The notes under the pieces: generated by a model
The model's input: the letters and a program-made list of their open reading frames with translations, nothing else
What the model was told of the DNA's origin: nothing
The model's database searches: none
Position numbers and translations under genes: made by a program
Source: Fragilariopsis cylindrus CCMP1102
Taxonomy: Eukaryota; Bacillariophyta; Bacillariophyceae; Bacillariales; Bacillariaceae
Length of the DNA: 38,506 bases
Direction: 5' to 3'
Assembly: GCA_900095095.1 (NCBI GenBank)
Contig: FMBT01000241.1
Span: 1-38,506, forward strand
Shown: positions 9,610 through 33,877 of the stretch, in pieces
How the letters are laid out: each line of letters starts with the position of its first letter
How positions within the stretch are numbered: the stretch's first letter is position 1

Positions 9610-9756
9610 TCAAAAGTTACTAGTATTGTATTTTGTGGTGTCTAAGAAACAGCCAATTTGTGCTGAATATCAAAAACGACGGTTTATAACATTCATATCA
9701 GTCATGCATGCGAGGCGGAGAAAAAAGCATAATCATCATCCATAAATTCCCACTAA

Positions 9757-12316: not shown

Positions 12317-12822
12317 GTTATTGAATTAAATTGTGCAGTGAGTTGGTAATACAGTAGTCTAATTCAGTTCTATTTCGGCTGCGATAAGAAGTAGATGATG
12401 ATGGTGGTGGCAGATAAAACATACACTGAAATAAAAAAGAATTCAAAGTTATATAAGATCAAAAAAGGGGACATGGAAGAATAATACTTTTCATTATAGA
12501 CTAGGATATGCTAGTAATAAATAAATGAACCTTCATCTATAATTAACATATATATTATATTTAAAAAGTAGTATGCAGTAGGATGCAGTAGGGGAGGGGT
12601 GCATATAATCCGACTATATTAGCGCGCGTAGGATTTCTATTATTTTTGTCTATGATTTTATAGTTTCAATTTTCAATCTTTTTTTATGGCGCGAACTTTT
12701 TAATGTCATTGGTTCTATTGCACGTATCTTTCACATGGACCACGAAAACATTCTTACATACCGTTGCTATCATTATTTCTTTCACAGGACTGTCACTACG
12801 ATTCTCCCTACAACTCACCACC
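12317..12822. other. Spacer between LRR and SAP genes
   Basis: AT-rich spacer of about 500 bases. No protein-like frame except a short plus-strand run (12735-12920) that overlaps the start of the next gene. Presumably the LRR 3' untranslated region and the SAP gene promoter. Confidence 0.45.
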
Positions 12823-14214
12823 ATGACCGACAGCAATTTCCGCAACCGAACCTACGCCCAGTTCGTCGAGCGGTTATCATGAACCGCAACAGATCTCTCG
12901 TATTTGGTTTGAAGAATTGAATGCTAGCCAATGCAAAGAACTTTGCAAAGCTGTCAAAGTCAGATGTTCCGGTACCAAAAAGAACATCATTGAACGTTTA
13001 CTCGACCAGGAATTCCTTGTTCAATATGCTATTAACTTGAAGAGATACATGATTAAAATCGATGCTTTAAAAGCCGAATGTCGCAAACGTATGTTACAAG
13101 TCTCCGGAAATAAATTTGATTTAGTCCTTCGAATCGTCCAACACGAACATGGACCGGTGGTGATACGTTAAAACGTCCTGCAACTTCAATCGTCGTCGAT
13201 GAAACATCCGGAATTGAAAAGCATGTTGCGAAGAAACGTAAACCATCTAAACCAAGCCCATCTACTATGTACACCCGTATCCAAAAAAAGATCCGATCAT
13301 GTTCTCAGAAGAAATATCAATCTCACTGGGGGTCGAAGTCACACGCACCGGCTGTTTGTTCTCTCGTTCATAGTCTTTTGGAAAGTCTTGACAAATATAC
13401 AGAAACTGATCCAAACTTGGTCGTTGATGGGTGTTATGCTATCGTATCATCATTCGTTGAAAACTTCGATTACTTTGACCGTCCTGGTTACTGTGAAGAT
13501 TTAGAAGATTCAGCAGAAAAAATTATACAGTACGTCGTTTATGATATTCCACGTAATATGGTTTCTTCAAATGACTTGGATAAGCTGGCAAATATTATGA
13601 TCGAATGGCAAAATGTTGCAGCTCCTTATGGAGTTTTGAATAACCGCTGTCTTGGCTTCGACATAGGAGCCAATCTTATCCGAAATGGTCGTGGTGCCGA
13701 CGAGGAGGAGGAAGACAAAAAACCACCAGCAGCAGTTGCACAAGCTCCCATCAACAAAAAGTTTTCGCAATTCTCAAACAAGAAGTCTGGTGGTTCATCT
13801 ACTACAAGTACCGGCGATTGCTGGTTGAAAGTGGCGGTAGCCACCACCTCGGTGAGGAGTAAAGGAACTGCAAGCAGATGTGGGTTATCACTTTCGCAAT
13901 TCACGAACAAGAAGTCTGGTGGTGGTGGTGGTGGTGGTGGTACCATGACACGATTTGAACAACAAAACAGCAAGCGTCTAACGAAAGAATGGCACTGTCA
14001 GACTTGTCATAAAATATTCAGTTTGAAACCTAAAGGTTGCTTCACACAAAATCATCAAGTTAGGACGAACTATAATATTAAAAAATCTACAACGAAGGAC
14101 GAGCAAAGAACCAAATTGCGTGGAAAAAGTGCAGACGATGACGGATTAACTCTTGGATCAGGTATTGATTGGAGCAATGGTAATGATCGAGTAGGTCAGA
14201 ATCGTTTCAATTAA
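12823..14214 (+). CDS. Nuclear-type protein with two SAP-like motifs and a C-terminal CxxC motif (frameshifted)
   Basis: The protein-like text runs from about 12827 to 14214. First SAP-like motif: LNASQCKELCKAVKVRCSGT then KKNIIERLLD. Second: IDALKAECRKRMLQVSGNKF then DLVLRIVQHEHG. A -1 shift at about 13153-13157 (one missing base) joins this to TGGDTLKRPATSIVVDE, a basic KKRKPSKPS stretch (possible nuclear signal), and a globular part (VCSLVHSLLESLDKYTETDP). Two repeated SQFxNKKSGG boxes follow, with a Gly run encoded by (GGT)n, and near the end WHCQTCHKIFSLKPKGC, a Cys/His cluster that might bind zinc. SAP motifs bind scaffold/AT-rich DNA. The start is uncertain: the ATG at 12823 is in another frame from the good text, so a shift just after it or an upstream exon is needed. 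Confidence 0.65.
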
Positions 14215-14610
14215 TATCAAATAGATACATATATATATATATATATATATATAAATTGACAACAATTCCGTCGAGGAAACTAGCAACAAAAATCTAGCAT
14301 TCTTTATTTTCAATTAATAAATAGCACCAACCATTCATCTAAAAATAAAATGTAGTCAAGATAGGAAAGATCCCCATGTTGTCCTAATCAATTGTTTGTA
14401 AAGAAATAGAGATTCCGATTCGATATTATGGGAAAGGAAGGTTTCTTATCAAAAAACGCCGTCACTCTTATAAAAGAGGTCAGTATCGTTGATGCATAAA
14501 TTATATGATTATATTATACTAAATTACTTAAATAATTCCATGTATTCATGATATTTGCATCATATATTGTGCATTAGAAGATATAGTCCTACTAGACTAG
14601 AAAGGGTGAT
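14215..14610. other. Convergent 3' region with AT microsatellite
   Basis: Between the SAP gene stop and the end of the minus-strand aldolase. Contains a TA dinucleotide run and AT-rich sequence. A 23-codon plus-strand frame at 14428 (MGKEGFLSKNAV) resembles a gene start but ends at once and is not accepted. Confidence 0.5.
14228..14253. repeat. (AT)n microsatellite
   Basis: Uninterrupted alternating AT/TA run of about 25 bases, directly after the SAP gene stop codon. Confidence 0.9.
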
Positions 14611-16239
14611 TCAAGTTGATGATGATAGTAATGTAACTTTGTTGAAAAAAGCAGACCATGCCTCTATCCAAATTTCAGTAGGAATATTCCCATTTGCTTC
14701 ACCAATTGATAATTCAAATTTACATCGATATCCTTTTTGAAAGGCAACATAATCAACGCCATCCTCTTCTTCTTCTTCTATAGATCGCAATCGATGAAAT
14801 ATTGATATACCATTACATTCATTTATAATTTCATCGCGAATTAATTCACATGTTTCTTTCGATGGTTGTAAATAACAATGTACCATATTAACTTCAGGCA
14901 TTGATGGTTCAAATAAAAGAATGCTTCTTTGATTGTTGCTATATGAAGAAAGTTCCTTAACAATATGTACCAATTTATCTTTCTTGTCTTGAAATGTCAT
15001 CATTGGTTGTTCTACATTATCATCATTATTATTTTCATCATCATCGTTGTTTATTATTGTTATGTCTTTCCAATATCGTTTATATCCTGCCCAACCAGAA
15101 ACAGCATACGGTAGTAACGTATATAGATTACCACCAAATCGTCGTAACCATACCCTGGCTTCATCACAAAACTCTTTCGAACCTAATAACATTGCACCGG
15201 ACATACCACCTAATCCTTTATAGAATGATATATAAACAGAATCAAATGGATCTACTAATTCTGCCAGTAATGGTTTGTTGTGTTGGTTATAACCAGTTGC
15301 AGTAGTTGCTTCAAAGATACGTGCACCATCACAATGTAATTTAATATCATGTGTTGTGGCGAACTTCCTTAGTTGTATTATATCCTCCCATGGTGTTATT
15401 TTTCCACCTAATTCACGATGTGGTAATTCCAACATAATTGTAGAGATCATGCTTTCCCTAACATCATTACCATTATCATTATTTTGCCGTTGTTCTTCAA
15501 AATAATCCTGTACATGTTGGTATAGTAATGGAGATGCACCTAATCCTAATCCTATATTACTATGAGGTAGGGGAATAGCATCTAAACCACATAGTTCTCG
15601 ATAACCATCTTGTTCATGTAAAAGTAAATGACTTGTTCTATGACAAATAAAGGACAGCTTATTCTTGCTTTTGCTTTTACTAATCTTTTCGTCGTCGTCG
15701 TCGTCGTTATTAGTATTAGAATTAGAATTAGTATGAGTATTAGAATGAATAAGGAGTGCAATTGATTGTGCCATACCGCCACTGGGCATAAAAACTCCAT
15801 CCTCTTGACCGAATTCTTGTGATATTTCTTTTTCAAATGATCGTAGAAATGATGCCGATGATGCCGATCCTGCTTGTTTATCAAAGTCACCATATATATC
15901 CCATTCAGTAATACCCAACTTTTTACAATCCACAATAGTTTGTTCTAACTTTTCTATGGGACTAGATATTGGATGTGGTGATTGGAGCATTGTAATTATT
16001 TTTTCTTCTTCATTCTGCTCATTCTTATTATTGTTCACTTTATTAAACCTTTTTGTTTGAAAACGCGACGGCGATGACGATGATGAAGACGGCGAGGATG
16101 CCGCAAATGCCATGACTCTTACTCGGTGTCGTCCACCGACAGCCGACGAAATGATTATGACACCAGTAAGGACAACCAATAGTAATGTTGTAGTTGCGAC
16201 TGTCTTTGATCGATCCCTGGATGGCCGATTAACCTGCAT
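14611..16239 (-). CDS. Threonine aldolase-like PLP enzyme (beta-eliminating lyase fold), signal/plastid presequence
   Basis: 542 residues, single exon, ATG at 16239. Fold-type I PLP enzyme of the threonine aldolase/beta-eliminating lyase family, which cleaves L-threonine (or related beta-hydroxy amino acids) to glycine and an aldehyde. Seen: GDFDKQAGSASSASFLRSFE, FGQEDGVFMPSGGMAQSIAL (cofactor phosphate region), HRTSHLLLHEQDGYREL, IMLELPHRELGGKITPWEDI, IKLHCDGARIFEATTATGY (the conserved Asp that contacts the pyridine ring) and SVYISFYKGLGGMSGAMLLG with the Schiff-base Lys. The N-terminus has a hydrophobic stretch (TTLLLVVLTGVIIISSAV) followed by VMAFAASSPSSSSSS, like a diatom bipartite plastid signal. 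Acidic Asn/Asp inserts lengthen it beyond the usual 350 residues. Substrate cannot be fixed from sequence. Confidence 0.85.
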   Translation of the reverse strand: MQVNRPSRDRSKTVATTTLLLVVLTGVIIISSAVGGRHRVRVMAFAASSPSSSSSSPSRFQTKRFNKVNNNKNEQNEEEKIITMLQSPHPISSPIEKLEQTIVDCKKLGITEWDIYGDFDKQAGSASSASFLRSFEKEISQEFGQEDGVFMPSGGMAQSIALLIHSNTHTNSNSNTNNDDDDDEKISKSKSKNKLSFICHRTSHLLLHEQDGYRELCGLDAIPLPHSNIGLGLGASPLLYQHVQDYFEEQRQNNDNGNDVRESMISTIMLELPHRELGGKITPWEDIIQLRKFATTHDIKLHCDGARIFEATTATGYNQHNKPLLAELVDPFDSVYISFYKGLGGMSGAMLLGSKEFCDEARVWLRRFGGNLYTLLPYAVSGWAGYKRYWKDITIINNDDDENNNDDNVEQPMMTFQDKKDKLVHIVKELSSYSNNQRSILLFEPSMPEVNMVHCYLQPSKETCELIRDEIINECNGISIFHRLRSIEEEEEDGVDYVAFQKGYRCKFELSIGEANGNIPTEIWIEAWSAFFNKVTLLSSST

Positions 16240-16712
16240 ATCGGTTAGCTACTGACGCTTTTTGGTGTTCTGCAAGTACAAGTCCCGATACGCTGTACAT
16301 GTACTGATTCGATGGATTGTGTGTGAAATAAGATTATGTGAAAGATCCAAAATACAATGGGGTTCACGTGAAGAGAAAAGCAATGCGCAAAACCGCGCGC
16401 GAGTAAAGGGTGCCAGGGGAATATTAGTAATGTTTAATATTGTTTTTAACTCGCCGGGCGGAAGATGCTCCTGTCACGTGCACTTTAGTGTTCGTACTTT
16501 TTGAGTCCCACCACTTGATAAAACTCCTTAGTACGACTTAAAAAATTCTTATTGTGTCACCAATAAATTTCAAATTACGAATAGAACATATGCAATATTA
16601 CGAATAGAACAGCAGCATCATGCAACATTGCTTCTATTATTTGACACACACAAAAACAAAACAACAGCCAAAGAACAAAAAAATAGCAAATCAAATACGA
16701 TTATATAATAAT
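16240..16712. other. Divergent promoter region
   Basis: Between the aldolase start (minus) and the next gene (plus), with no convincing gene. It contains CACGTG-type E-boxes/palindromes (TTCACGTGAA near 16365 and GTCACGTGCA near 16474), possible bZIP/bHLH sites between the two divergent starts. Confidence 0.4.
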
Positions 16713-17411
16713 ATGTTAGCAAGTCGTTTGCAACGGATCGTGGTGGGTAGTAGCGCTGCTGCCACTGCATTTGCGGCATATCACATAAATGCCATGGGAG
16801 GCTTTTGGTCTAAAGTGCAGCAACAGCATGAAATCCCGGTGGGGTCCATTTTTGAAGGAGGAGATTTATTCGAGTTGGAAGTTCCAAGATCGTATCTAAT
16901 AATGAGTAATAATAAGGAAAAACAAGATACCGGAGATGACAATGGCAATGGCGATGGTGATACCGCTGGAGTGTTCGTGCGAGCATTTTATAGCGCTCCA
17001 TTTTTCACGATTGAGCGCAGTATTATCGACCTAGTGATAAATCGTCGGTGGCCAGAAGTGATACACGAAGATAGTTCAACGTTTGAGGTGGGTACCCAAC
17101 ACGCCGCTTGGACCGTGACGGAAAGATATCCAACAGCTCTTTCTATGGCATGGGGTGGTACACGTATTGGTGGAACGACCAATCTGCAAATTAGACCCTC
17201 CAAAAGAGTGGTAGGTGATAATAGTCAATTCGTCATTTTACAATTCGGTTCGACACTCAATTCATCAGTAAATCCTGGGATCATGTACTTGCACTACAAA
17301 TACAGCCAATTGCTGTTGGCTCAGACCGCACAACACCTGAAGCATCAAGAAATGAAAATGACCAGCAGCGTATCTTGTCTAAAGTACCGAATAAAGATTT
17401 CGTTTGTATGA
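16713..17411 (+). CDS. Conserved unknown protein, possibly DUF2867-like
   Basis: 233 residues from ATG at 16713 (an in-frame ATG at 16620 would add 31 Lys/Gln-rich residues; I prefer the second because MLASRLQRIVVGSSAAATAF looks like a real N-terminal targeting helix). Body: GVFVRAFYSAPFFTIERSII, STFEVGTQHAAWTVTERYPT, ALSMAWGGTRIGGTTNLQIR and, near the end, GIMYLHYKYSQLLLAQTAQH. The alternating beta text, a Trp after 'MAW' and a final helix with His/Tyr/Ser-x-Leu-Leu-Leu remind me of DUF2867-type proteins, but this is tentative. The Arg/Ala-rich start could be a mitochondrial presequence. The last 15 residues look unrelated and may come from a late frame change. Confidence 0.6.
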   Translation: MLASRLQRIVVGSSAAATAFAAYHINAMGGFWSKVQQQHEIPVGSIFEGGDLFELEVPRSYLIMSNNKEKQDTGDDNGNGDGDTAGVFVRAFYSAPFFTIERSIIDLVINRRWPEVIHEDSSTFEVGTQHAAWTVTERYPTALSMAWGGTRIGGTTNLQIRPSKRVVGDNSQFVILQFGSTLNSSVNPGIMYLHYKYSQLLLAQTAQHLKHQEMKMTSSVSCLKYRIKISFV

Positions 17412-17975
17412 ATGTGATGTTCAACGAATTTATTGATAATTCTGCACGATGATCACAAAATGAAACCACACGTTGCTTCAAACGCTAACAAAAAGATATG
17501 ATATGTGTACTACTATTAATGTAACTGTTTTGTCTCATCGATTGATTGTTTGACAGTCGTAGTATATTAGAATAATTTATTTTATTTTATTTTATTTATT
17601 TTATTCTGATTAATTTAATTTAAATTGGACATTATATTACTGTAACAAAACTTCTCTATTCCATACTAGCAATAGGTTGATATAGATACATTTTCGAATA
17701 CAGTTATGTTTTCTAGATTTTTTAGATCTCTGTCAGATCTTCAAATAAGAATGGCGTGAATGAATCAATCCGGGACTGTAACACGACTCAAAACTATACC
17801 GTTTTGTAGCTTTTCGTAGAGGACAAGGAAAAACTCAAAAAAGCTAAAAGCACACTTTTAACTTTTCTTATTCACCCATGCATGGTGAGAGCGTCAATTT
17901 TGTCCATCAAATAATCAACGAAAGAATCAGTCAGTCAATCGATCATCTTCATTGAATAGGAAATAAAGTTCAAAT
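17412..17975. other. Spacer with TTTTA repeats
   Basis: AT-rich spacer with a (TTTTA)n run at about 17577-17606 and no protein-like frame. The 3' end holds imperfect AGTC/ATCA repeats before the next ATG. Confidence 0.5.
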
Positions 17976-20010
17976 ATGACGACTATGATAACGGAACTAA
18001 TCGACGACAGTAATAAGAATGAGATATTGTATCTTCGTCAACAGATAAAGGATCTGGTCCTTTTAGCATTGGAAAAAAAGGGTAAACTTTCGTTCGACGA
18101 CCTACCAGAAGTACTTCGTAATGATCGAGATATCGTTCTAGGAGTTGTACTTGCTGGGTCGAATGCAGAGGAGTGGTACAAGCTACCACAAAGATGGAAG
18201 GATGATGCTGAAATAGCTTGTGCTGTATTTGCTCGCGAAATAACAAGTTTTTTTAGTACCGACCCCCCTAAAGAAGGACGATCGTTGAAATTTTTGGATC
18301 TACCATATCATCTCTGTATGGACAAAAAAGTTGTACTACACTTTCTTCGGTCCGACTGCTCGAAATGGGAAAATATTCCTATGAAATTTAAGTCAGATGC
18401 AGATATCCTTGCTACAGCATTCTTTTACGAGAAAATAGATTTTGATGATATTCCCAAGATCTGAAACGAAGCAACAGAGAAATTGCTTCCTACGGTGTAT
18501 CCAACGATTTGATACAGGTTGATGAATGTACATGCTTTGATCGCGATGACTTTAGGGTAGCTATACAAGACGGTGAATTAGAATGGCGACACTTACCTCA
18601 AACACTCAAAAATGATTATAAATTTGCTGCCAGCATCTCCTTGCTAAAAACATACAACGACTCGCCAAGACAGATTATGGAGCAGATTCCAAAATTCGGT
18701 CAGACAAGTCCTATTGGCGTCGCATTCTTTCTTCGCCGTATAATCTTTACCATAGTTTGAAAGATTTGATTAAAGACTTTGCGCCAGTTGAACTTTGTTC
18801 GGATCATGATTTAATGTTGGAAATTTGCAGTAAATGTACCCATGCATTCTCTTTGATCGACGAAAACTATTAAATAATCGAGACTTTCTAGAGAAAGTTC
18901 TTCGAGCAAACGTGAATGTTATACAACTCTTACCGCATCAAACGCAAATACTCCATCGAGATTTGGTCTTTACAGCTCTACATAGCCTTGACAAAGAACC
19001 GAACATATACGTGGAATCTGCAACATCCGATGCGATCTACCCACCTTTCTGGGAAGATTGTAAATTTATTATGACTGGGTGAAAGCTGGTTATCGGCTTC
19101 CGTTCATTTCTGATGACTTATCCAAGGCATGGACGAGTAATCGAGCACTGTGTCTCGCTGGTTTGATATGTAACGGAAAAAAATATCGCACACCACTTAC
19201 CTACGCCCGAAGTTTCATAGGGGAAGCGCAGTTCATGGCAGAGGTACTGGACCATCACCCAGATATGTATGGGAAAGCCAAAGGTGCAGCAGTAAATGAT
19301 CCAACATGTATGACAATCGCATTTGCAGCCTCACTAGAGCTGACGACTCGTAAGATGAAAGAACTTCATTTCAATGGAAAGGACGATGAAATCAAGAGGT
19401 ACATTTCCTTTCTTCGTCACAAACTGGATCCATAAAGGTATTCGTTGAGTGTATCCTGGCAGTATGCTTTCAACCCAATCGATAGACGTTACAGGAAGTA
19501 ATTTGACTCTTCTTAATCAGGGTATTGAAACTAGTATCAATTACAAACGCCGTTTGGTTGAATATCTAGGTATCCCAACTGGACGAAGGCTTCTTCAATT
19601 ACTGCAGGCGGAACGGAATGTTCTAGAAGCAACTGCTCCGTTCGAAGATTTTTAGAAGTACAGTATTGATAATCAACTGCAGAAGCGACTCCCTCCAAAC
19701 TCGGATACGATTGTTGCAACCGCATTCGTCGGCTTGAAAAAAGAAGGACGAAGACTCAAGATAATCAGAATTTATTAAGTATGATATAAACAAATAAAAT
19801 ATTAATCATAGACGATAACAATAGACAAAAAAAAAGTCTACTTTGAAAAAGATTCGATTGATTCATTATTGAAAAATCAGTCTATTCGCACTCTTGGATA
19901 AGCAGAACGGCATTATTACCCAGTCTCTGAGCCAATTTTTCGACGCTACTGTTTTATGCGATGCCGATGATCCCTTTGTTCGTCTGTACGTTACGTTGAA
20001 TAACAATTAA
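17976..20010 (+). CDS. Helical repeat protein, DUF4116-like, broken by repeated frameshifts
   Basis: Protein-like text starts at ATG 17976 (MTTMITELIDDSNKNEILYL) and continues through at least five frames: 17976-18464, about 18470-18760, about 18706-18870, 18834-19082, 19079-19435 and 19449-19655, with plausible tails to about 20010 (SLSQFFDATVLCDADDPFVR). The first four changes are all -1 in the reading direction. Repeats of about 50 residues share a pattern: LPxxLxxDxxxVLxxV, then WxxLPxxxKxDAxIAxA (DLPEVLRNDRDIVLGVVLAG; EWYKLPQRWKDDAEIACAVF; KWENIPMKFKSDADILATAF; EWRHLPQTLKNDYKFAASIS). This resembles DUF4116-type repeats, which alternate 'D+E.VL.AV' helices; function unknown. Either a pseudogene or a gene with several missing bases; continuity of the repeat across breaks favours the latter. 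Confidence 0.5.
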
Positions 20011-20268
20011 TATATAAGTACTCTAACGCTACTATTAAATATTACTGTATTATATTACTATTACACACGCTTCATTATACAGTAGTAGGATATCACAAAT
20101 ACTGTACAGGATGTATGCTCATTCCTCCTGATAAGCCTGCCAAGGTGAGCTATTTGTGTTGTACGTGATGTGTAACTAGTGAAATAGGATTCAGATCAAT
20201 TTCTGGTCTTTTTTTCTTTCTTTTCCGTTTCGTCGTAATTATAAATTACTACTTACTTCTTGTATGTA

Positions 20269-21549
20269 TTACATATCAAAGACTCGTTTTTTCTTCAAAG
20301 GCGACGACGAGGAAGTCATATTATCACTATCTTGATCAACGTTAGCAGTTCCTAACGCATCAGTCAGAAGATCCGACAATAATCCTACATCATCATCATT
20401 ATCATCATCCTTTACATCAACCTTTTTCATCTTCCTACCATCGATTTCTTCTTGTGATGTTTTTTTTGATTCTTCTAACTCCAAGTCCAAATCCATATCC
20501 AACAAAGAACGTAATTTTTCTTTTTCATTTTCTATCCAAATTTGTTCAATAATTTTTTGTTTTTTATCATTGTCTTCTAATCCTTCATTACCAATTTTTT
20601 CTTCTAATTTTAACCGTAATGTCTGAACAAATAATAATTGATTTGTTGTTGATTCCTTATCGTCATCTTCTGATAATAATGTAGAAGTAGAAGTAGAAGT
20701 CGACTTCGATTTTGTACCGAATAACCACGATTTCAACCAAGACGATGACGATGACGATGACGATGACGACGACGATCTCTGTTCAGCAACATCATTTGTT
20801 GTTGATACTATTGTATTCGATACAACATCCGAAATAAAATCATTTGTGGTTATGGAACGTAATATTGATCGTAATTTTAAATTTTGTTCACGTTCTATAT
20901 TTAATTCATTTTGTAATTCTGTATTTGCTTTCATTTTTAAATGTAATCGATGTGCTAATATATAGGCGAATGTTGCTACTAATAAATTAATGATTGAATG
21001 TTGTCTTGTTTTTAATCTTGCTGTGAGACGGTTCCACATTGATTTATCTAATTCTGTATGTAATTTGAATTTTGTGTCATCTATTTCTTTTTGTAATCGT
21101 AATATACTTGCTTTGGGATTTTTTAAAAATTCACCGGCACGTTTTTGTGATTCTATATATTGTTGTTTTGCTTTTGCTGGTGATAATTTTGTTGTTGCAC
21201 TTATTGTACTTGTACTGCTGGACGATGGTGGAAGGGGTGGAGGTAAATTATTTTTGGACGGTGAAGTCAACAGTCGACAAGAAATAGATTGTTGTCGGTT
21301 CTTAACTAGTAATGACGACGACGATGACGAAAACGAAATCGTCGTTCTATGGCGGCCAGTTTTGGTGGTGAGGAGCGTCCTCCTACTAGCTGAAGATGCA
21401 TAACAGAGGCTCATACTTGTCGATAAGTTTCTATGCCGTTGTCCCAATTGTGGTTTCGTGTACTGTACAATATCTTCTTGTGTCTGCCTTTTATGTTGTT
21501 TGTGTTGTCTCAATCGACAATCGACGGTTGCCGCCGCCATCGTCATCAT
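20269..21549 (-). CDS. Coiled-coil single-span protein, likely mitochondrial
   Basis: 426 residues, ATG at 21549, no introns. The N-terminal 100 residues are Arg/Ser/Thr/Gln-rich without acids, as in mitochondrial presequences. Then comes a basic helical region (SPAKAKQQYIESQKRAGEFL, ILRLQKEIDDTKFKLHTELD) and a membrane segment (SIINLLVATFAYILAHRLHL). A coiled-coil follows (NTELQNELNIEREQNLKLRS), then a Ser12 run encoded by (GAC/GTC)n, a second coiled-coil (RLKLEEKIGNEGLEDNDKK) and an acidic tail ending in basic KKKRVFDM. Function unknown. Domain order (presequence, helix, span, coiled-coil) recalls inner-membrane coiled-coil scaffolds, but there is no specific family motif. Confidence 0.7.
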   Translation of the reverse strand: MMTMAAATVDCRLRQHKQHKRQTQEDIVQYTKPQLGQRHRNLSTSMSLCYASSASRRTLLTTKTGRHRTTISFSSSSSSLLVKNRQQSISCRLLTSPSKNNLPPPLPPSSSSTSTISATTKLSPAKAKQQYIESQKRAGEFLKNPKASILRLQKEIDDTKFKLHTELDKSMWNRLTARLKTRQHSIINLLVATFAYILAHRLHLKMKANTELQNELNIEREQNLKLRSILRSITTNDFISDVVSNTIVSTTNDVAEQRSSSSSSSSSSSSWLKSWLFGTKSKSTSTSTSTLLSEDDDKESTTNQLLFVQTLRLKLEEKIGNEGLEDNDKKQKIIEQIWIENEKEKLRSLLDMDLDLELEESKKTSQEEIDGRKMKKVDVKDDDNDDDVGLLSDLLTDALGTANVDQDSDNMTSSSSPLKKKRVFDM

Positions 21550-21810
21550 TTTTTGAACGCTGGACCACCCATCATTTTTTCATTCACACGGGAGTGAAAA
21601 GATACTATGTTTATCTCAACTTGACAAAAAAGATTTTTATTGGATTTTTCCATTTTGAATGTCTGAAGCACTACTGTATAGTATGTAACGTTACTTACTG
21701 GTAGTCTGGATTAAGCACATTATTGGTAGCACTGTTGATCTGGCAAGGAAGTAAATCCAAAAAGCACAAACAAGGAATAGATCGCATAATGCTCCTGTTA
21801 TGTGTGTGGT

Positions 21811-22422
21811 ATGTCATTGATCGCACAAACACATTCCTCTGGTGAAAACAGAGGATCGGCTATTGGATTAGCACAAACAAGATAAGCACTTGGTTTATTA
21901 TGCGGATCCCTAATCAGAGGACTATTATCTCAAAAATTTGGACGTAAAAAAAAAACATTCCAATGTGCAGCAATTTTTTGTGTTGATAAATGCTGTTGCA
22001 CAATTATTCTTAATGATATTTGCTCCACCAATAACAACCACAAAAACGGTCGTAGAAAAACAATCAAAACTTGTTGCTACATCATTAATTTTAATGTTTA
22101 TGGCATCAGTATTCTTTGGTATTAGTCTAAACTTTGTTTCATTATGGCCCATGCATATAGGTGCTGGTTTAATCGGTACGAGTATGGGTGTTGCTGGTGC
22201 CGCTAGTCAGGCTTTATTGGCAGATATAGTAGATCGTGGTGATAACAGTAATAGTAGTTGTAGTAATCATGGTGAATATAGTAGGGTATTTGCACTAAGT
22301 GATGTTGCCGATTCTTTAGGTTTAATTTTGGGACCTATCAACGTTTTGGTTCAAGTGTCGGACTAGCAGTCATGGGAATCCTATGTATTTCGCTTGTTCC
22401 AATGGTTCTCTGTATGCCTTAA
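21811..22422 (+). pseudogene. Half of an MFS transporter (broken, N-terminal half missing)
   Basis: Readable text: ENRGSAIGLAQT, an in-frame TAA at 21883, then ALGLLCGSLIRGLLSQKFGR (MFS loop signature G-x-L-x-x-x-x-G-R+). After an A10 homopolymer at 21946-21955 the frame changes to FVLINAVAQLFLMIFAPPIT, SLILMFMASVFFGISLNFVS, AGLIGTSMGVAGAASQALLA and SRVFALSDVADSLGLILGPI. A further -1 shift near 22343 leads to FGSSVGLAVMGILCISLVPM and a TAA at 22420. These are membrane helices of a major facilitator of the 12-span, DHA1/SLC18-like type. The N-terminal spans have no counterpart upstream, where the sequence runs straight into the promoter of the minus-strand gene. One stop, at least two frame changes and the missing half mean a likely pseudogene. 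Confidence 0.65.
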
Positions 22423-22601
22423 CCTTCCTATAGTACAAACTAATTATAATAGTAATAATAGTAATAATAAAATAATGCCGAAAGCATTGGCTACCTAATA
22501 GAACAAGTCGGCATGTCATGTCATTAGTTGTTTATTTAATTTTATATTAAACCATTCTCGTTCGCGACGATCATCTTGACGTTGCCAGTGGTATTATATG
22601 A

Positions 22602-24673
22602 TCATCTTCTTCCTCGTTCTTGATCATCGACATCGTCGTTGGACGTTGTTTTTGTCGGTGGTGGTACTATAAGACCATCTACTTCTGTCGGTAATCCTGC
22701 ATGACGCGTCATGGGTGTAAATAAACAGGTATAATTCCACCAGGCGTATATGACCTGAATCATTACCTGTATACGACCCAGCAAATCTTTTCGAAGGACC
22801 AATCCATATTACGATTAACTAGATCACCAAAGAAGCCACCACCAGGTACACTTAATGTAAGAGCGTTGATAAACCAAACGAAGATACCGAAACCATACAG
22901 AATAAATTTTTCAATCCCCTTTGATGCGAACCCTCCCATGATTAAGGGGGAACAATTGTATTTGATGAGTGGCAATAAAGCGAATGGTAATAAAAATCCT
23001 AATGCAGCATTTACAATATTAACCATTTGATTTAGATGCGATGGGAAGAATATGCTAACGATCACACAGGGTGTGATAGCAACCAACCTGTAACAATGGC
23101 TCTAACTTTAACAGGAAGTCGGACCTTTAAAAAACCATCCATAATGAATTGTCCTGTATAGGTTGTAGTAATAGCAGATGATTGTCCGGCAGCCAATAAT
23201 GCGATACCCCACATCAGACAACCACCCTTTAAACTGAAAAAGTAATTGCAGAAATCTGTCAATCCAACGGTTGCAGCACTCGGTGTACCGTAGACACGTT
23301 CCGCAGCAATCGCAACCACCGCTAAATTAACAAAAAATGATATCAGTATGGGCAATATCGGTTCAATAGAGCAATACCAAACTGCTTTCTTCACAACATC
23401 ATCACGTCGGACGACTTTCCTACTTTGTACCGTTGCCGTATGAAGATACAAATTATGAGGCATAACACCGCTCCTATTAAGTAGTGAAAAAGGAAGAAAA
23501 ACACGCATCCGTGGGTTAGTGGCTGTGAGATAGATGAATGGATGAGACATTATTTGCTCTTTTTTTGCTGTGCTATTATAATTATAATTAGTACACGTAA
23601 ACACGTACCTAAAATACCAGCTATGGTAAATAAATCATCTGTTGTAACATCCACAAATCCATAGATCCATCCTTTCATTAATTCCGAGGTATCTGGTTGT
23701 ACGAATGACATTTCCACAAATATAGCAATTGACATAATACCAACAAAGAAAACAATAATATATTCTAATATATGCATCCCATATTGCATTGTTCCTAAAA
23801 TAACATGGTTGTTACTAATGACATTAACACGCCAATCCAATACGGCCAACCAAAGAATAAATTACAGGCAATACCAATACCAATGACTTCCGGTAAATCA
23901 GTTAATATCACAGAAAATTCGGCAAGGAACCATGCGAAGTATCTTCGCCAAGTGGATTGTTGTTGTTGAAATTCATGTGCTTGTACTTCTGCTAATGTTT
24001 GTTGGGCATAATATCCTAATCGGACACAGAGTACCTGTACATATATTGATAATACAGAGGACCACCAAATTGTAAATAATAAATAATATTGTGTTGTGGC
24101 ACCCGCTTGGATATCAGCTTGATAATTTCCTGGATCGATATATGCAATTGAAACAAGCCAACCTAGTATATTATTTGTTTGTTTGTGTAATTGTAATGTA
24201 AATTGTGAACAAATTATTGCAAGGTCAGGTAAATGCTGGATATGATATCTAAATAGTACAGACTGGACTGGCTGAATGGACTCGACAAACCAAACCAAAC
24301 CAAACCAAACCAATACAATACAGTACGACGAACAAGCAAAACAATTGCTGAATCGGAACGGATATTGGGAGATTAAAATATTGGAAGTAGTTAGAATAAC
24401 TTACCAGGTCCAACAAAATATAACATATCTTTCCACCATGTTCCTGACGGCGACCATGGTATTATTGCTGTAGCTTCTGACAGGAGATGACGGTGATGCT
24501 GATATTTCAAATGATGATCGTGACGATCGTCGATCCTGATTTTGATCATTGTCATCGTCTTCATCTTGAATCATTGATTCCTGCATGATACTACTATTGT
24601 CTTGCTGTTGCGTTACATCGATTTCATCTTCATTTTCATACTCGTTTTCATCCTCGTATTTGGTTATCGACAT
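22602..24673 (-). CDS. NRAMP: NRAMP-family divalent metal transporter, 2 introns (frameshifted in sequence)
   Basis: Exon 1 24673-24405 (MSITKYEDENEYENED acidic N-terminus, later WKDMLYFVGPG), intron 24163-24404, exon 2 24162-23609, intron 23474-23608, exon 3 23473-22602. NRAMP signatures: VSIAYIDPGNYQADIQAGAT (TM1 DPGN metal site), LTDLPEVIGIGIACNLFFGW, VMPHNLYLHTATVQSRKV (TM6 Met-Pro-His-Asn), LLAAGQSSAITTTYTGQFIM, and the C-terminal VMIQVIYAWWNYTCLFTPM. H+-coupled uptake or export of Mn2+/Fe2+ is the family role; location may be vacuole, plastid or plasma membrane. Frame breaks: upstream of the WKD motif, at 23797-23800 (LF-L), near 23468, near 23091 (RAIVT-R-LVAITP) and near 22790. The middle three are each repaired by one base. 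Convergent with the MFS remnant. Confidence 0.85.
24286..24313. repeat. (CAAAC)5 array inside NRAMP intron 1
   Basis: Five near-perfect CAAAC pentamers inside the 242-nt first intron of the NRAMP gene, on its non-coding strand; the RNA would carry GTTTG units. Confidence 0.8.
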
Positions 24674-25170
24674 ATTACTTTCCTCCCGTCTTTTTTTTTG
24701 GGGGGTGATGTGATCACAAAAAAATAATGTCACAGACCCGATGCAGCACAAAAGCAATGCTTTCTCTATCTATCTCTCTATCTTTCTCTCAGATAAGATC
24801 TCTTTACCGATAGCTCCAATACTAATAATAGTTTGTCGGTCGGTAACGCTGTTGAGGGTACAGTATTCGTAATACGAAATTATGATTGTATTGCTTGTTC
24901 ATATTTTTCTTGGCGTGCTTTTTTCATCCATCACTTGAACCTAAACACGGTTCGAGCACGGATCCGACAGTCCCGCGTGTTCGGTTCATGAATGTACACC
25001 CCAAACTATTCATCCCCCAAAGGACAAATACATTTGGACATGTTAAAATTTAATATTATGAAACTGTGGTAATATTGAAAACTAACTTGAACACTGTACA
25101 AAGAACAGATACACCCTAGTCCAGTCATAGTGCTGAATTCTAAGGTGATAAATGAACCATTATATATTCC
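24674..25170. other. 5' flank of NRAMP and spacer
   Basis: Upstream of the NRAMP start: a T8/G6 homopolymer near 24691-24705 and a CTAT/CTCT pyrimidine run (24760-24790). No gene seen; the promoter of the NRAMP gene should be here. Confidence 0.45.
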
Positions 25171-25400
25171 TTAGTCTGGTTTAAGCTTTCCTGGTATCTC
25201 ACACTGTAAAAGCTCAACCACAGCACTTGGCAGGTTCGTGAAGTTTGCTTTTCTGGTGAAATTGATAACACCAAGGGGGCTTGTTGATCCACTAATCACC
25301 AGAGTTTGGAATGCTAATAATCAAGGGATATTTGTAGTCAGTAACCAAATGTTAGGTTCCAATACTGTCATAAGTACAGAATCAATCTTACTGTGTTTAA
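25171..25400 (-). pseudogene. Coding fossil with one in-frame TGA
   Basis: A minus-strand frame ending at TAA 25171-25173 reads like protein on both sides of a single TGA (25321-25323): KIDSVLMTVLEPNIWLLTT before it; LVISGSTSPLGVINFTRKAN and FTNLPSAVVELLQCEIPGK after it. About 75 codons with balanced composition, unlike the flanking AT-rich DNA. No family recognised and no upstream continuation found (a T8 run precedes it). Probably the end of a decayed gene or transposable element. Confidence 0.4.
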
Positions 25401-25635
25401 AAAAAACCTGCTAATATTTCTAATTTGGGACTAAATTATTCGGCACGTAGGTTTCTACATCTACATTAATTGCCTACCCGACTGGACTATCCTAAAGGAA
25501 GTCCAGACTACATAGTAAGACCAAACAAATGAATTTGCAAGTATAGACATCCGTTACAATGTACATTTTGTACCTACAGTACATTATTTATGTCCTCTGT
25601 ATTATTACTGGCGTCCTCGTGGTACTAGTAGTCGC
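25401..25635. other. Spacer with a near-palindrome
   Basis: No gene. Contains a stem-loop at 25482-25506 (ctggact/agtccag arms with a partly paired loop). Confidence 0.5.
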
Positions 25636-25645
25636 GACGTCGCGA
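25632..25645. repeat. Perfect 14-bp palindrome tcgcgacgtcgcga
   Basis: Self-complementary 14-mer of CpG-rich sequence in AT-rich surroundings, at the left border of the first 100-bp repeat. The second copy keeps only gacgtcgcgag. Confidence 0.9.
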
Positions 25646-25872
25646 GAAAATGTTTTCTGGGAGATTTAACAGAGAATAAAAATGGGTTCTCCAGGAGAAC
25701 CTTTTACTACATTATAATATTGGCGTAACTCGTCAGACGTCGCGAGAAAAAAAAATCCGACCAAAATGTACTCCTGGGAGATTAACAGAACCTAATTAGG
25801 AATAAAAATGGGTTCTCCAGGAGCGTGGGACCCACGCTCCAGTAGAACCTTATTTACATTAAAAAAAAGGCG
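25636..25872. repeat. Two direct repeats with nested hairpins
   Basis: Two diverged copies start exactly 100 bases apart (25636 and 25736), each with gacgtcgcgagaaaa, then gggagatt-aacaga, aataaaaatgggttctcc, and a final agaacctt/tacatta block. Copy 1 has an 8-bp-arm hairpin (25685-25701). Copy 2 has the same outer arms plus about 20 extra bases that form an inner hairpin with 10-bp perfect arms (25820-25829 and 25831-25840). Confidence 0.75.
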
Positions 25873-26454
25873 AGATGTCATAATATCGCACATTGTTTGT
25901 ATCAGTCAAATACATTATGTACTATTATGTATTAGTTATAGTACTTTTACGCCATAGTAATAATAGGACTTATCTTTCTTGTTTTACTCATGAAAATGAT
26001 TAATTATGAAATACCGTAGTCGCGGGTTTATAATAATAATATAATATTATGATACAGTACTTTATGATACTGTTGATATCATATTAGGTGGTGTCACCAA
26101 AGGTGCACCAAAGGTGCGACGTGGTGGTGTCAACCAAAAAGAACAACGGAATTGCAGGTGGGAGAACGCCCACCGCCCAAACAACTCTGGCCCTATGATT
26201 CTTTATTCTTTTTTTTAATGAATATAGTTATTGCACAAATAAAACCCCACACGGGTAGTCGTGCATTGCTAGGCTGGTCCACATATTATTATAATCTTAT
26301 GTAATTATCCCTCATATTTTGCCCGTTACAAAAAGAATGGAAAAAAGTGAACGAGAGGGAGTGAGTTTACGCACATAGTTGGTACAATATATGAGACAGT
26401 ATCGGAACGAATCGAATCGAATCGAATCGAATCGTAAACATTCTATCAAAGGCA
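25873..26454. other. Spacer with short repeats
   Basis: AT-rich spacer, no gene seen. Contains an 11-bp tandem pair (accaaaggtgc twice, about 26096-26118) flanked by ggtggtgtca copies (about 26090 and 26122), and the CGAAT array before the next gene. Confidence 0.45.
26407..26434. repeat. (CGAAT)5 array upstream of a start codon
   Basis: Five perfect pentamers ending about 20 bases before the ATG at 26455, probably in the 5' untranslated region. Confidence 0.85.
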
Positions 26455-27177
26455 ATGAAATCTGATATTGTTGATAATGGTGGCACAAAGTTGCCAAGTC
26501 GCTTCATCCACATGATATCACTTCGGGATCTTATTTATCAGGAATCCGAATATGAAGCAGAGTGTTTTCTAAACAAGTACAGCAACGAGAGCAGCAGTGA
26601 CGACGACGACGACGACGACGACGAGTCAGTTGACACTACGGCTGCGGTTGATGATAGTAATACAATAGACGAAGAAGAAGATGACTTATTGCTGTCGGAT
26701 TTATTATTGGGTCCAAACGGAGCTGCTATCATAGTTGATGATGAATTGATTGCACGCCATCACTTTCCTAGTAATCATCAACAGCAATATCATCGCCATA
26801 TCGATGATGGTGACAATGATAATTACTATGAACATCAACAAGTTCGACTACTGCCACAACAAATAATATCGGCACCAACACATACCGTCGGACGATATCA
26901 TCAAGAGCAGCAAGAACAACACTATAAGAGAAAGAAGAAACATCTTTATAACAACGACAGTGATGACGATGACGCTAGTATCAATGGCGACGATGATGCA
27001 TTGATGGATTCTTTACCATTTCAAGAAGAACAGGGACAACATGAATATAATACAACATGTGGTTTACAAAAGCATTGGGATACTGCTGCTGCTGCTGCTG
27101 CTGACAATACCGCTACTAAACGTAGCTATAAACGTCGTAAGCATAATAATAGGGATTATAATGATGCAGTAGAATAA
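26455..27177 (+). CDS. Acidic low-complexity protein, unknown
   Basis: 240 residues, ATG at 26455, single exon. N-terminal MKSDIVDNGGTKLPSRFIHM and LRDLIYQESEYEAECFLNKY, then an Asp8 run from (GAC)n, the short hydrophobic motif DDLLLSDLLLGPNGAAIIVD, His/Gln-rich text, two basic clusters (YKRKKKHLY; KRSYKRRKHNN) that could be nuclear signals, and an Ala7 run. The acidic patch with a Leu-rich DLLLSDLLL core resembles a transcriptional activation domain. This is inference only; no DNA-binding domain is present and no family is recognised. Confidence 0.55.
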   Translation: MKSDIVDNGGTKLPSRFIHMISLRDLIYQESEYEAECFLNKYSNESSSDDDDDDDDESVDTTAAVDDSNTIDEEEDDLLLSDLLLGPNGAAIIVDDELIARHHFPSNHQQQYHRHIDDGDNDNYYEHQQVRLLPQQIISAPTHTVGRYHQEQQEQHYKRKKKHLYNNDSDDDDASINGDDDALMDSLPFQEEQGQHEYNTTCGLQKHWDTAAAAAADNTATKRSYKRRKHNNRDYNDAVE

Positions 27178-28125: not shown

Positions 28126-29810
28126 ATGGGAAAGCCTCAATTTAATCCGATGAGAGATCTGGTCAGTGGTGCAATCATGGCTGCTACTTCTGTCCCACAG
28201 TTAATTGCATACGCTGAAACTGTCGGATATGCTGGTTATCGTGGATTGGCAACGGCAGGTGCACCACTTGCTGTTTGGGGAATGATCACAGGTGGACCAT
28301 TCATGAATGCTGGTGTTACTTCTATCACAGCTTTAATGGCCAAATCTGATCTGAATGGAGAACAATACATGGCAGAACATGGAGAACAGGCATACGTGGA
28401 ATTGGTAGCAGCATACTCAATGTATGTAGGAATTGCATCATTTTTATTAGCCTTGGTCGGATTCGGTAAATTAGCCGGTTATATACCAAAATCTGTTAGG
28501 ACGGGTGAGTAGTACTGAGAGTGAAGCGATTGAATTATTTATAGAATTCTTTGCTTTTTACGAGTTTTCAATCTGTTTTATGTCGACCAAAGAGAACATT
28601 ATCTTTGTTTAATTGTGCAGAACGTGTTGTCTACCAGGTTTTTTCTTTACGTAAATTTAGAATTAAAAATGTGTCGTCTATCCATGTTTTCGTCGTATCA
28701 TTTCGCAGAAGTTTTGTTTGTTTCTATTTTCTAACGTAAACTACTTCCTTTTTTTTTGGTCGAATACAATAATTATTCAATATATATTATATTATAGGAT
28801 TCAAATGGGGATGTGCACTTGGTGTACTGGTATCTGCTTTACCCAATGGACTGTTCGATAGTGGAGGTAAGCAGGTTAAGGCATTGGTAGCAGACGATGG
28901 TACTTTTGGTGCGTTGGTTGCTCTGTTCAAGACACAATTCCCCCAAGCGACGGGTGCTGTTAACCTATCGGGATTTATTTACAGTTTAACACATCCTACT
29001 CAGTGGTCAATTGTACCTACTATCATGTTCGTGACTGGAACGTGGTTCGTTATGAACGGGAAGAAAATGCTACCAAAATTCTTACCACCAGGTTCGGAAG
29101 TTATCTTAGTAACAGCCGCCGGAACCTTGTTTAGCATGCACTTTGATTACTCTGGTGGCATCGTAGGAGAAATCCCTGCTATGGATCCGGATGCCGGGAT
29201 TGCTATTCCTGGTACTGATTTAAAATTCCCTGTCGAATTTTTGGACTACCAAAAGATTTTGGATGCACCGGTAGCAGACCGCATGGGTGGTTGGTTTTCA
29301 TTGGCTATCACAAGTCTACTATTTGCTGGTGTAAACTTCTTGTCGATCATGGGTATCTGTTCCGGATTTGAATCGGAGAATGGCATTCCATGGAGCGCCC
29401 CACAGGAATTGGCAGCCCAAGGTGGTAGTTGTTTAATGGCTGCTATGGTCGGATCGGCACCCGTTTCGGGTAGTATGAGTCGATCGTTAGTATCACGAAT
29501 GTCAGGAACGACCTCCCAACTAGCATGCATCATAACGGCTCTAATTTGGATCCTCGCTATGCCATACATGAGCATCATGAGCCCAACACCCAAAGCCGTT
29601 CTCAGTGCCGTCATTGTTAGTGCCGTACTGAAGAGTATTATTTTTCCTAAGTCTTTGATGGAGTTGAAGGGAATTGACTCCATCGTTGGTTGGGGAACAG
29701 CTGTTTTGACTGCAGTTACATCCCCTACTTTGGGTTTCGGTTTGGGATTAGGATTATATTTGGTAACAATCCCTCTCCAATCTACTACGAAGACGGTCAA
29801 GAAAGATTAA
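28126..29810 (+). CDS. SulP/SLC26-type anion transporter lacking a STAS domain, one intron
   Basis: Exons 28126-28504 and 28798-29810 (intron 28505-28797, gtgagt...tatag; codon Gly split), 463 residues. N-terminus MGKPQFNPMRDLVSGAIMAA and TSVPQLIAYAETVGYAGYRG is the SulP first-helix signature. Also FMNAGVTSITALMA, ITSLLFAGVNFLSIMGICSG, LMAAMVGSAPVSGSMSRSLV and ILAMPYMSIMSPTPKAVLSA. The protein ends a few residues after the last membrane helix (GFGLGLGLYLVTIPLQSTTK), so the cytosolic STAS domain of typical family members is absent. The usual length is 550-750, so it is short. Substrate not determinable (sulfate, molybdate, bicarbonate). Intact reading frame. Confidence 0.85.
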
Positions 29811-30080: not shown

Positions 30081-31733
30081 CTAGAGACCCGTGGATAGGC
30101 GTCGCTTCAAATATATCTCAGATTCTGGCTCGTTCGGGTTGATAAAATGGAATTTACTGAAACCCAAAGTTGCAAGACCTACGTCAAAGACTAGGAACTG
30201 CCCTGCTGTTAGAAATCCTACGTGTAGGATTCTCGTGAATAGTGCCGTGGTACTAAGCCTATACAATCCCATCGATCGAACAATATTCCCCATCTTTTTT
30301 ACCAGACCTTCATCACCTCCTGCACTGCTCTTGTTTATTAGTGTGAGGAGGGTATCGGCAGGATGGGATATCACTGCTGCAACTGCACCGGCCCCGAATC
30401 CACTAGTGACAGCCAGACCGATCTGTGTTGCGTAACTGCTTTGATTTACCTCCCCCATATTTTTTATACCGAAAAATGGGGCCAACTTCTCGCGCAAAAT
30501 ATCCTGTACTCCAAATTTTGCCATAGTGTCTGTGGCGGTGATTGATTATTATTACAGTATCATATATGCAGGAAAGACCGGCGTATGGATATGTGAGAGT
30601 GGCATTGATGCAAACATGCAATTAGTTGCATATGCATTTTACAAAGATATTCATATACGGATGCATATGTATGTATATTAGTTAAAAGAAACATGGGGTA
30701 TGTCACAATACACTTACATGGTACTTGTTTGCATAGGAGAGGTATGAGACCACTATAGAATCCAGTAATTAGACCTTCCTCTGTCATTACCTTTTGAAAT
30801 GATGCAGCCATACCAAGACCTGGATTGCTAACCTGTTTAATTCTAATCGCCTCGAATGGGCATAACCAGAAAATGTCCGTCAATGTTTCTGCCACAGCAC
30901 TCGCCACGAGAGTACAACTCGTTTTGTTTTCATATACCTTCTCATCACCGAGATACTTAGCGAGTTGGATTTTAATAACCTCTACACCACCAAATTTTCC
31001 AGCTCCTTGTCCAAAGTATCTTTTCGGATGTACACACAGAGAATGAGAGAGAGAGAGAGGTTGTTGTAAGTAAGTAGATGATATTATGATCTACCTCTCA
31101 TTCCTATTCTAAAATGAGAGGTAGATATATATATATAGAGGGAGAGAAGAGAGAGTGTGTATGTGTACATGCGCAGAGGAGGAGAGAGGAGAGACTTACC
31201 CAATAGCGGTTGGGATACCACCGGTAAATAAAGGAATCTTTTGTTGTTGCAATAAACGGGACGTTGTGAGTGGATTCCATGGGTATTTTGTTGGTTCAAG
31301 TTGGATCTTAGTTTTTATAACATCAAATGGACTGTAATGGGGTTTTATTATCATTGCGGTATGATCAAGATGAAGATAGAAGAAGAAAGTTGTCGTACAT
31401 CCATGGTGAGAACTCAATGTTACTGCGTTATGATAGATGATTGTGTACGCCAAAATCTGGGTCAGACTTCTGTTTTTTTTTTTAAATTGTAGAGGATGTA
31501 CTTACGTCATAGCTGTGTAAAGTGGAAGGAAAGACATGAAAAGGCAGTAATAACAGTAGAGATATAAGCAAAGCATAAAGTACAAATAATCCACAATGCC
31601 CAGACGATAGATGGAACAACGATTACAGACGATATCGTCTTACCAGTATGTGTGATACAAGTACCGAGTGACCCAGCGGCTAGACTTGTTCCATAATACG
31701 CCGTATTGTATTGGTTAAAATGTATACAGACAT
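30081..31733 (-). CDS. PIC: Mitochondrial phosphate carrier, 5 exons including a 7-nt microexon
   Basis: Exons (minus): about 31733-31644, 31512-31506 (microexon), 31331-31200, 31019-30718, 30529-30081. All junctions are GT-AG and in phase. Protein text: FNQYNTAYYGTSLAAGSLGT, then CITHT-A-M-T-PFDVIKTKIQ across the microexon, YFGQGAGKFGGVEVIKIQLA, ETLTDIFWLCPFEAIRIKQV, LIPLLCKQVPYTMAKFGVQD and VISHPADTLLTLINKSSAGG. Three carrier signatures are present: PFDVIK, PFEAIR and HPADTLL; the third, without the basic residue, is typical of phosphate carriers. Role: inner-membrane phosphate/H+ symport for ATP synthesis. The start is tentative: ATG 31733 (MSVYI) needs one extra base near 31724 to reach the good frame. 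An upstream exon is possible. Confidence 0.85.
31089..31126. repeat. Intronic hairpin with 14-bp perfect arms
   Basis: atctacctctcatt ... aatgagaggtagat with a 10-base loop, inside intron 31020-31199 of the phosphate carrier, next to GA and AT simple repeats. Confidence 0.85.
31506..31512 (-). other. 7-nt microexon (CTATGAC) of the phosphate carrier
   Basis: On the minus strand the seven bases are preceded by a pyrimidine tract and tttacacag, and followed by gtaagt. They supply the bases needed to complete THTAMTPFDVIK exactly: ACT G|CT ATG AC|T CCA. Flanking introns are 31513-31643 (131 nt) and 31332-31505 (174 nt). Confidence 0.8.
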
Positions 31734-32652: not shown

Positions 32653-33877
32653 ATGAAATTCGGAACCGCATATCTTGCTTTGGCTTGTGCCTTGGCCACC
32701 AATACTCAGGATGAAGTCCATGCCTTCTCGCCATCCTTAACAACAAGACCTACTACACTACTATCAAGATCAATAAGAACAACGAAATCATCGTCGTCGT
32801 CGTCGTCGTTCCTTAACTCACCATCATCTTCATCATCATCGCCGTCACTAGTATATTAAATATGGCGGACAGCGCATCGTCTTCAGGTGCAGATGATGAA
32901 ATTGCACGCCTCAAGGCAATGGCACAAAAATTACGTTCCGAGGCTGCTGGATTAGAAGCGAATCAAGCGGAAGAACGTGCGTCGGTTGCAAAATTAGCAT
33001 TTGAAAAATTTGATAAAAATCAAGATGGGGAAGTTTCCTTACAAGAATTAAAAGCTGGATTAGAAAAAGCTATGAAGACAGAATTACCCAATGAACGTGT
33101 ACAAAAATTAATGAACGAATTTGATGTGAGTGGTGATGGTTCCCTCCAATTAAATGAAATGGTATCAGTGGATCAATTTCGCAATAAATTAGAAGCATAT
33201 GCACGTGAAGAAAAAGTTTAGCACGAGATGCTGTCGATGAAGCAAAGAAGCAAGAAGAAATGGCACGAAAAGCAGAAGCACGTTTAGAAATATTGAACGA
33301 TAAGGATCCAACAACAAAGGATAAAATTATTAGTGTTATACCATACTTGTTCCCGTTATTGGATTCATTACAATTTGGACGGTTTTTAATTATGGAAAAT
33401 GCTGACAATCCATTGGTTGGATTACTGGGATTATTATTTACTGCCTACCGAAGTATCCCATTTTCAGGATTTATTGCATTCTTGGCACTTAATACTTTAT
33501 CATCCAATCCAGGTTTGAATAAACTTGTTCGATTTAATATGCAACAAGCAATATTCTTAGATATTGCATTATTCTTTCCGGGACTAGTAATTGCGTTAAT
33601 TTCTGGACTTGGTTCAGTAGCAGGATTTACAATTCCTGATGCCGGAAATCAAGCAGCAAATACTGTAATATTTGGTGTACTATTATTAACAGTATTGTAT
33701 ACATCAATAAGTTCATTGTTGGGAATAACTCCTGATGCAATCCCTATCATATCAAAAGCAGTAGAAGATCGAATGCCGACAACGGATATGTTTGATGATG
33801 AAGGTAAATTCGTCCCACGTGAAGCACGAGAAGAAAAGGATGAAAATAAAAAGGACGATGACAAGAAGAAAGACTAA
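32653..33877 (+). CDS. Plastid-targeted EF-hand plus Tic20-like membrane protein (two frameshifts)
   Basis: One protein in three frames. N-terminus: MKFGTAYLALACALATNTQD signal peptide, then VHAFSPSLTTRPTT plastid-type cleavage/transit region and a Ser run. A -1 shift near 32852-32857 leads to NMADSASSSGADDEIARLKA, then two EF-hands (FEKFDKNQDGEVSLQELKAG; MNEFDVSGDGSLQLNEM, each with a D-x-[ND]-x-[DS]G loop). The first frame stop (TAG at 33219-33221) is removed by one T: EEKV-L-ARDAVDEAKKQ. Then a four-span Tic20-like domain: YLFPLLDSLQFGRFLI, TAYRSIPFSGFIAFLALNTL, LNKLVRFNMQQAIFLDIALF and YTSISSLLGITPDAIPII. Tic20 is a core channel subunit of the inner-envelope protein translocon. EF-hands in front would place Ca2+ sensing on the same chain. 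The C-terminus is charged (KDDDKKKD). Confidence 0.8.

Follow-up and report, generated by a model that had tools for sequence, protein, structure and literature searches.

The seven bases CTATGAC on the minus strand at 31512..31506 of the window (the whole 38,506-nucleotide stretch of DNA that was analysed) very probably form a coding microexon that is normally included in the product of a mitochondrial phosphate-type carrier gene. Judged from the DNA, this exon is probably constitutive, and it is of a kind that gene finders would probably overlook. The original prediction placed a 7-nt exon at 31506..31512 between a good acceptor and a good donor, and both the coordinates and the letters proved exact: CTTTACACAG precedes the exon and GTAAGT follows it. 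Read along the minus strand, the 5' neighbour of CTATGAC is CCTTCCACTTTACACAG and its 3' neighbour is GTAAGTACATCC; the upstream acceptor is pyrimidine-rich (TTTCCTTCCACTTTACACAG), and the downstream donor reads GTAAGTACAT. An internal exon of at most 15 nt with canonical splice sites counts as a coding microexon (the limit is taken from PMC8831610), and the 7-nt arrangement CACAG-CTATGAC-GTAAGT in the DNA corresponds to this definition, with the use of the two sites being predicted.

The coding consequences of the seven bases are specific. When exon 1 is joined straight to exon 3 (...CACACATACTG followed by TCCATTTGATG...), translation yields ITHTVHLML and a stop codon, and the protein ends after residue 35. 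When CTATGAC is placed between the two exons, the reading frame is restored and continues through ITHTAMTPFDVIKTKIQ, that is, ITHT-AMT-PFDVIK, both in the window and in a second copy of the locus on contig C504 of the same 67.9-Mb assembly. The product, ITHTAMTPFDVIK, has the same spacing as the seven other carrier genes that cover this place. Together with one base from each neighbouring exon, CTATGAC encodes Ala31-Met32-Thr33 (numbering of the C504 protein), which stand just before Pro34, the proline of the first PxDxxK signature. The exon therefore lies within the first carrier signature and contributes to three codons, as had been proposed, and the break of frame and motif on direct joining, as well as its repair by the seven bases, is reproduced by translation. 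Pfam and profile scores likewise indicate that the microexon is required for the conserved motif.

The host gene occupies 31733..30081 on the minus strand and consists of five exons with GTAAG-type donors and AG acceptors; its spliced reading frame, taken from the C504 copy, encodes 326 amino acids. Exon 1 (31644..31733; 90 nt in the window, 91 nt in C504) starts with the ATG at 31733, and its coding part ends with ...AYYGTSLAAGSLGTCITHT and the first base of the Ala codon. Intron 1 (31513..31643; GTAAGA ... CTTTACACAG) is inserted in phase 1 and measures 131 nt in the window and 132 nt, free of stop codons, in C504. It is followed by exon 2, the microexon, and by intron 2 (31332..31505; GTAAGT ... 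CCATTACAG), a phase 2 intron whose 174 bases are all identical in the two copies. Downstream lie exon 3 (31200..31331; 132 nt), which encodes PFDVIKTKIQ...TAIG, the repeat-rich intron 3 (31020..31199; 180 nt, 174 in C504; GTAAGT ... AAAAG), exon 4 (30718..31019; 302 nt), intron 4 (30530..30717; 188 nt; GTAAGT ... CCACAG), and exon 5 (30081..30529; 449 nt including the TAG stop). With 131-188 nt, the four introns are close to the mean of 142 nt given for Phaeodactylum tricornutum in its current annotation (PMC5859163). The 44 residues that intron 1 of the C504 copy would encode, if retained, are mostly hydrophobic. On the plus strand, an ORF of the sulfate-permease family (28773-29810; PF00916) converges with the carrier gene and is separated from the carrier stop codon by 270 bases.

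Pfam recognises three Mito_carr stretches in the encoded protein (88 bits, E 3.5e-25). Members of the SLC25 family are defined by three homologous repeats, each bearing a Px[DE]xx[KR] signature, and the protein contains PFDVIK, PFEAIR, and PADTLL, the last of which deviates in the final residue of the signature; it can thus be assigned to this family. We take three motifs to be typical of phosphate carriers of the SLC25A3 type, namely TH-x4-P in repeat 1, KQ[VI]PYT in repeat 2, and SHPAD in repeat 3, and all of them are present here, in the form of ITHTAMTPFDVIKTKIQ, KQVPYTMAKF, and SHPADTLL. The carrier is thus of an apparent phosphate type, as judged from these motifs, while the nearest solved structure by sequence is that of a mitochondrial GTP/GDP carrier (E 2.1e-6). 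Of the original assignment as a mitochondrial phosphate carrier, the first half is secured by the Pfam match, and the second is suggested by the three motifs. In favour of a diatom host, the genome has 27 silicic-acid-transporter matches (best E 1.1e-226), a figure that includes exon pieces and copies and is not a count of genes.

The place of the microexon could be compared with nine carrier regions of the same genome, which correspond to eight genes given that C679 and C389 hold two copies of one; they were drawn from the stronger of 37 carrier matches. Seven of the eight genes cover the place, and all seven are free of introns there and keep the same His-to-Pro distance as the window gene. 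The sequences that read through are SITHGALTPVDVVK (C679/C389), ARWALTPFDYIK (C297), VHLMVTPLDVIK (C88), SHGITTPIDVVK (C139 and C117), and THSFVIPLDVVK and VQLALTPLDVVK (both C324); the match of the eighth gene, on C306, starts at residue 75 and does not cover the place. The microexon and its two flanking introns are thus absent from the seven other carriers of this genome that can be compared at this position. A threonine precedes the proline in six of these seven, as it does in the microexon gene. The gene found at G000:C679:746786-747980 and C389:29388-30582 is a second phosphate-carrier-like gene, presumably of the phosphate type according to the same motifs, and is 44% identical to the window carrier over the alignment. 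It has one modelled intron, located elsewhere than in the window carrier, and no microexon, and the two copies share 99.95% identity across 2,099 columns.

We scored alternative gene models with a profile derived from five further carriers of this genome. The 42 models comprised five specified ones (microexon, skipping, intron 1 retained, both introns retained, and repair by one unknown base) and 37 single-intron models with a GT or GC donor, an AG acceptor, an intron of at least 40 nt, and a frame that stays open from the start as far as FDVIKTKIQ; because the intron-1-retained model occurs in both groups, 41 of the 42 are distinct. The models considered here and below cover a single intron or, with the flanking exon ends in place, one extra exon. 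The microexon model ranked first with 246.5 bits, 9.8 bits ahead of a single-intron model with a poor donor, GTCTGT (236.7 bits), which was followed by the one-base repair (235.5) and a further model at 226.6. The scores were 224.7 bits with intron 1 retained, 7.1 with the microexon skipped, and 4.1 with both introns kept. None of the 37 single-intron models reproduces the family distance from TH to PFDVIK, and all score below the microexon model. For the N-terminal part of the protein, the Pfam Mito_carr score was 44.4 bits with Ala-Met-Thr, 32.3 bits without these residues, and 32.0 bits for the runner-up single-intron model.

The seven bases also stand out within the gap between exons 1 and 3, which measures 312 nt in the window and 313 nt in C504, the copy used for the tests. 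With the flanking exon ends fixed and sites kept at least about 30-40 nt from either end of the gap, CTATGAC is the sole open AG-N(k)-GT exon for k from 1 to 39 with k = 1 mod 3 in C504, no other internal exon of 1-39 nt being both open and frame-fitting; if YAG...GTRAG ends are demanded, no other appears among exons of up to 119 nt. The C504 gap was also shuffled 20,000 times at the dinucleotide level, with the microexon kept in the source: YAG-N7-GTRAG arose 18 times, was open in 15 cases, and encoded family-like residues, by a loose rule, in four; an open YAG-N7-GTAAGT arose twice. A bare AG-N7-GT appeared in 4,798 of the shuffles and was open in 4,602. Since the bare pattern is this common by chance, the argument draws its weight from the consensus ends together with the fit to the coding sequence.

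In the C504 copy, the seven bases and their splice junctions are identical to those of the window. The exons of the two copies differ by two SNPs (in exons 3 and 4), which leave the protein unchanged, and by one indel: at 31722, which lies 78 bases upstream of the 3' end of exon 1, the window has one base fewer than C504. As a result, only C504 has the well-placed ATG at 31733 in frame with the rest of the gene, and the window copy represents either a consensus error or a broken allele; the microexon reading is unaffected by this difference. Alignment of window positions 524-38506 with C504:40300-78981 yielded ten pieces, with some stretches unaligned, and the eight pieces that were counted (the other two span fewer than 1000 columns each) contain 370 SNPs and 406 indels, 279 of which involve a single base. 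Per 100 columns, about 0.9-1.0 differences occur in the two end pieces, one of which includes the carrier, and 2.6-6.8 in the six counted pieces from the middle (roughly 9500-27000). The numerous one-base indels, some of them inside long ORFs, suggest residual consensus errors, with real allelic divergence being possible as well. Because such one-base differences are frequent, agreement between the two contigs is weaker evidence than agreement between two clean haplotypes and no proof of each base, and frameshift-based findings in this window call for care. On the plus strand, an ORF at 32877-33221, which we take to be EF-hand-like, overlaps a TIC20-like ORF at 33209-33877 (Pfam PF16166). Together they resemble a single gene (32877-33877) interrupted by a frameshift that is present in both contigs.

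Among the other explanations, the one that fares best is a variant of the main reading and its odds overlap with those of the latter: the microexon might be real but regulated, such that skipping, or in-frame retention of intron 1, serves as an expression switch. Skipping would shift the frame and end the protein at the stop after residue 35, as befits such a switch, and intron retention is described as prominent in P. tricornutum (PMC5859163); next to microexons, retention is reported to be commoner in plants, while skipping is frequent in animals (PMC8831610). However, the strong splice sites on both sides and the position of the encoded residues in a conserved motif favour constant inclusion, and most plant coding microexons are reported to occur in major isoforms (PMC8831610). 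We therefore consider regulated use of CTATGAC unlikely, and continue to read the exon as one that is normally included.

Far less probable is a gene structure in which intron 1 is no intron at all, such that exon 1 extends to 31506, the 174-nt intron alone is spliced, and 44 extra residues come to lie inside the first signature. In C504 (C504:71970-72101), the 132 nt in question are indeed stop-free, and the frame continues into TAMT-PFDVIK. At 31540, however, the contigs differ by one base, such that the same segment measures 131 nt in the window and exon 1, read onwards there, meets a TGA at 31509..31507. The retained model also falls 22 bits below the microexon model and obtains 27.2 rather than 44.4 bits from Pfam, and an insert of this kind is present in none of the five other aligned carriers. 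Moreover, the GTAAGA donor and the pyrimidine-rich acceptor sit exactly where similarity to the family ends and restarts. Because of its far poorer fit to the carrier family, we set the retained form aside and read intron 1 as an intron; an isoform that retains it, in frame in C504, may occur. Least probable of all is an assembly error, that is, one base lost at the junction of exons 1 and 3 with a single intron and no microexon: one-base differences between the contigs are frequent, the window itself having one in exon 1, 78 bases from its 3' end, and the genomic error named in the original prediction as a possible refutation is conceivable in principle on this ground, but no difference between the contigs falls in the last part of exon 1, in the microexon, or in the first part of exon 3, the repaired frame reads THT-X-P, which is two residues short of the family length and 11 bits worse than the microexon model, and CACAG-N7-GTAAGT in the gap would be left unexplained (open YAG-N7-GTRAG: 15 in 20,000 shuffles).

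For the microexon reading, the following course of splicing can be proposed. Ordinary GT-AG splicing would remove the 131/132-nt intron before and the 174-nt intron after CTATGAC, and these two short introns would most likely be recognised singly, each across the intron. At a 7-nt exon, there is scarcely room for both sets of factors to occupy the two splice sites simultaneously, which argues for intron-by-intron recognition, and the flanking introns, being short with good consensus ends, offer a setting in which this is possible. CTATGAC would then be joined to one neighbour first and to the other afterwards, and its inclusion would place Ala-Met-Thr before the proline of the first carrier signature. 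From these features we infer actual splicing and constitutive use of the exon, as well as how and in which order its introns are removed. For exons too small for exon definition, intron definition aided by PRP-40, and more so with longer introns, has been put forward as a model that its authors regard as speculative (PMC8378409). Three FF domains, along with a WW match that stays under the Pfam cut-off, mark a Prp40-like gene in the present genome. Such a gene is expected in most eukaryotes, and its presence proves nothing about the CTATGAC exon.

As to the origin of the arrangement, two intron gains seven bases apart, or intron loss from the other carriers, are both possible. In a genome search with E up to 1, which disregards simple repeats and highly frequent words, intron 1 matched only itself and its C504 copy, and so did intron 2; further genomic copies, as expected from introner-like mobile introns, were not found at this sensitivity. 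A search for relatives outside the genome found none in viral contigs by sequence, and an alignment-based search there gave 61 pattern matches, none of them confirmed; the phage collection likewise contained none. Tentatively, CTATGAC could be envisaged as a constitutive, frame-shifting microexon that arose by two gains seven bases apart in the most constrained motif of an essential diatom carrier, is handled solely by intron definition, with no need for the microexon-specific factors that animals have, and belongs to a hidden diatom class, although we hold this combined scenario to be rather doubtful.

Coding microexons are an established class, of which CTATGAC is a further predicted member. 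In ten plant species, 2,398 coding microexons of 1-15 nt have been reported in a study that relied on the mappers OLego plus STAR (PMC8831610), and CTATGAC resembles them in being tiny, in its location in a conserved protein motif, and in having an intron on each side; about half of the plant microexons are reported not to be multiples of three, as is the case for 7 nt, and the class is missed by standard annotation, as would probably happen here. In contrast to the plant examples, the present exon lies in a mitochondrial carrier gene of a diatom-like genome and is predicted from the DNA of one species. Arabidopsis APC11 contains a constitutive single-nucleotide exon, the smallest constitutive exon known earlier having been 6 nt (PMC4674806). 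This exon, too, is extremely short, and it indicates that size alone is no bar to splicing, although its 1 nt is experimentally verified, as opposed to the 7 nt predicted here (PMC4674806). The PRP-40-dependent microexons of animal neurons are similarly thought to be too short for exon definition (PMC8378409), but they are alternative and cell-specific (PMC8378409) and usually multiples of three (PMC8831610), which 7 nt is not. A literature search on microexons of diatoms, stramenopiles, Phaeodactylum tricornutum, and Thalassiosira, outside subscription journals and preprint servers, returned no paper recognisably about diatom microexons.

If spliced as predicted, CTATGAC would provide an example of an exon of less than 10 nt in a diatom-like alga, and an annotation that omits it would disrupt the first transmembrane segment of the carrier. 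Diatom introns are described as few and short (PMC5859163), which would make this group a good test ground for the question of whether intron definition alone can handle exons so small.
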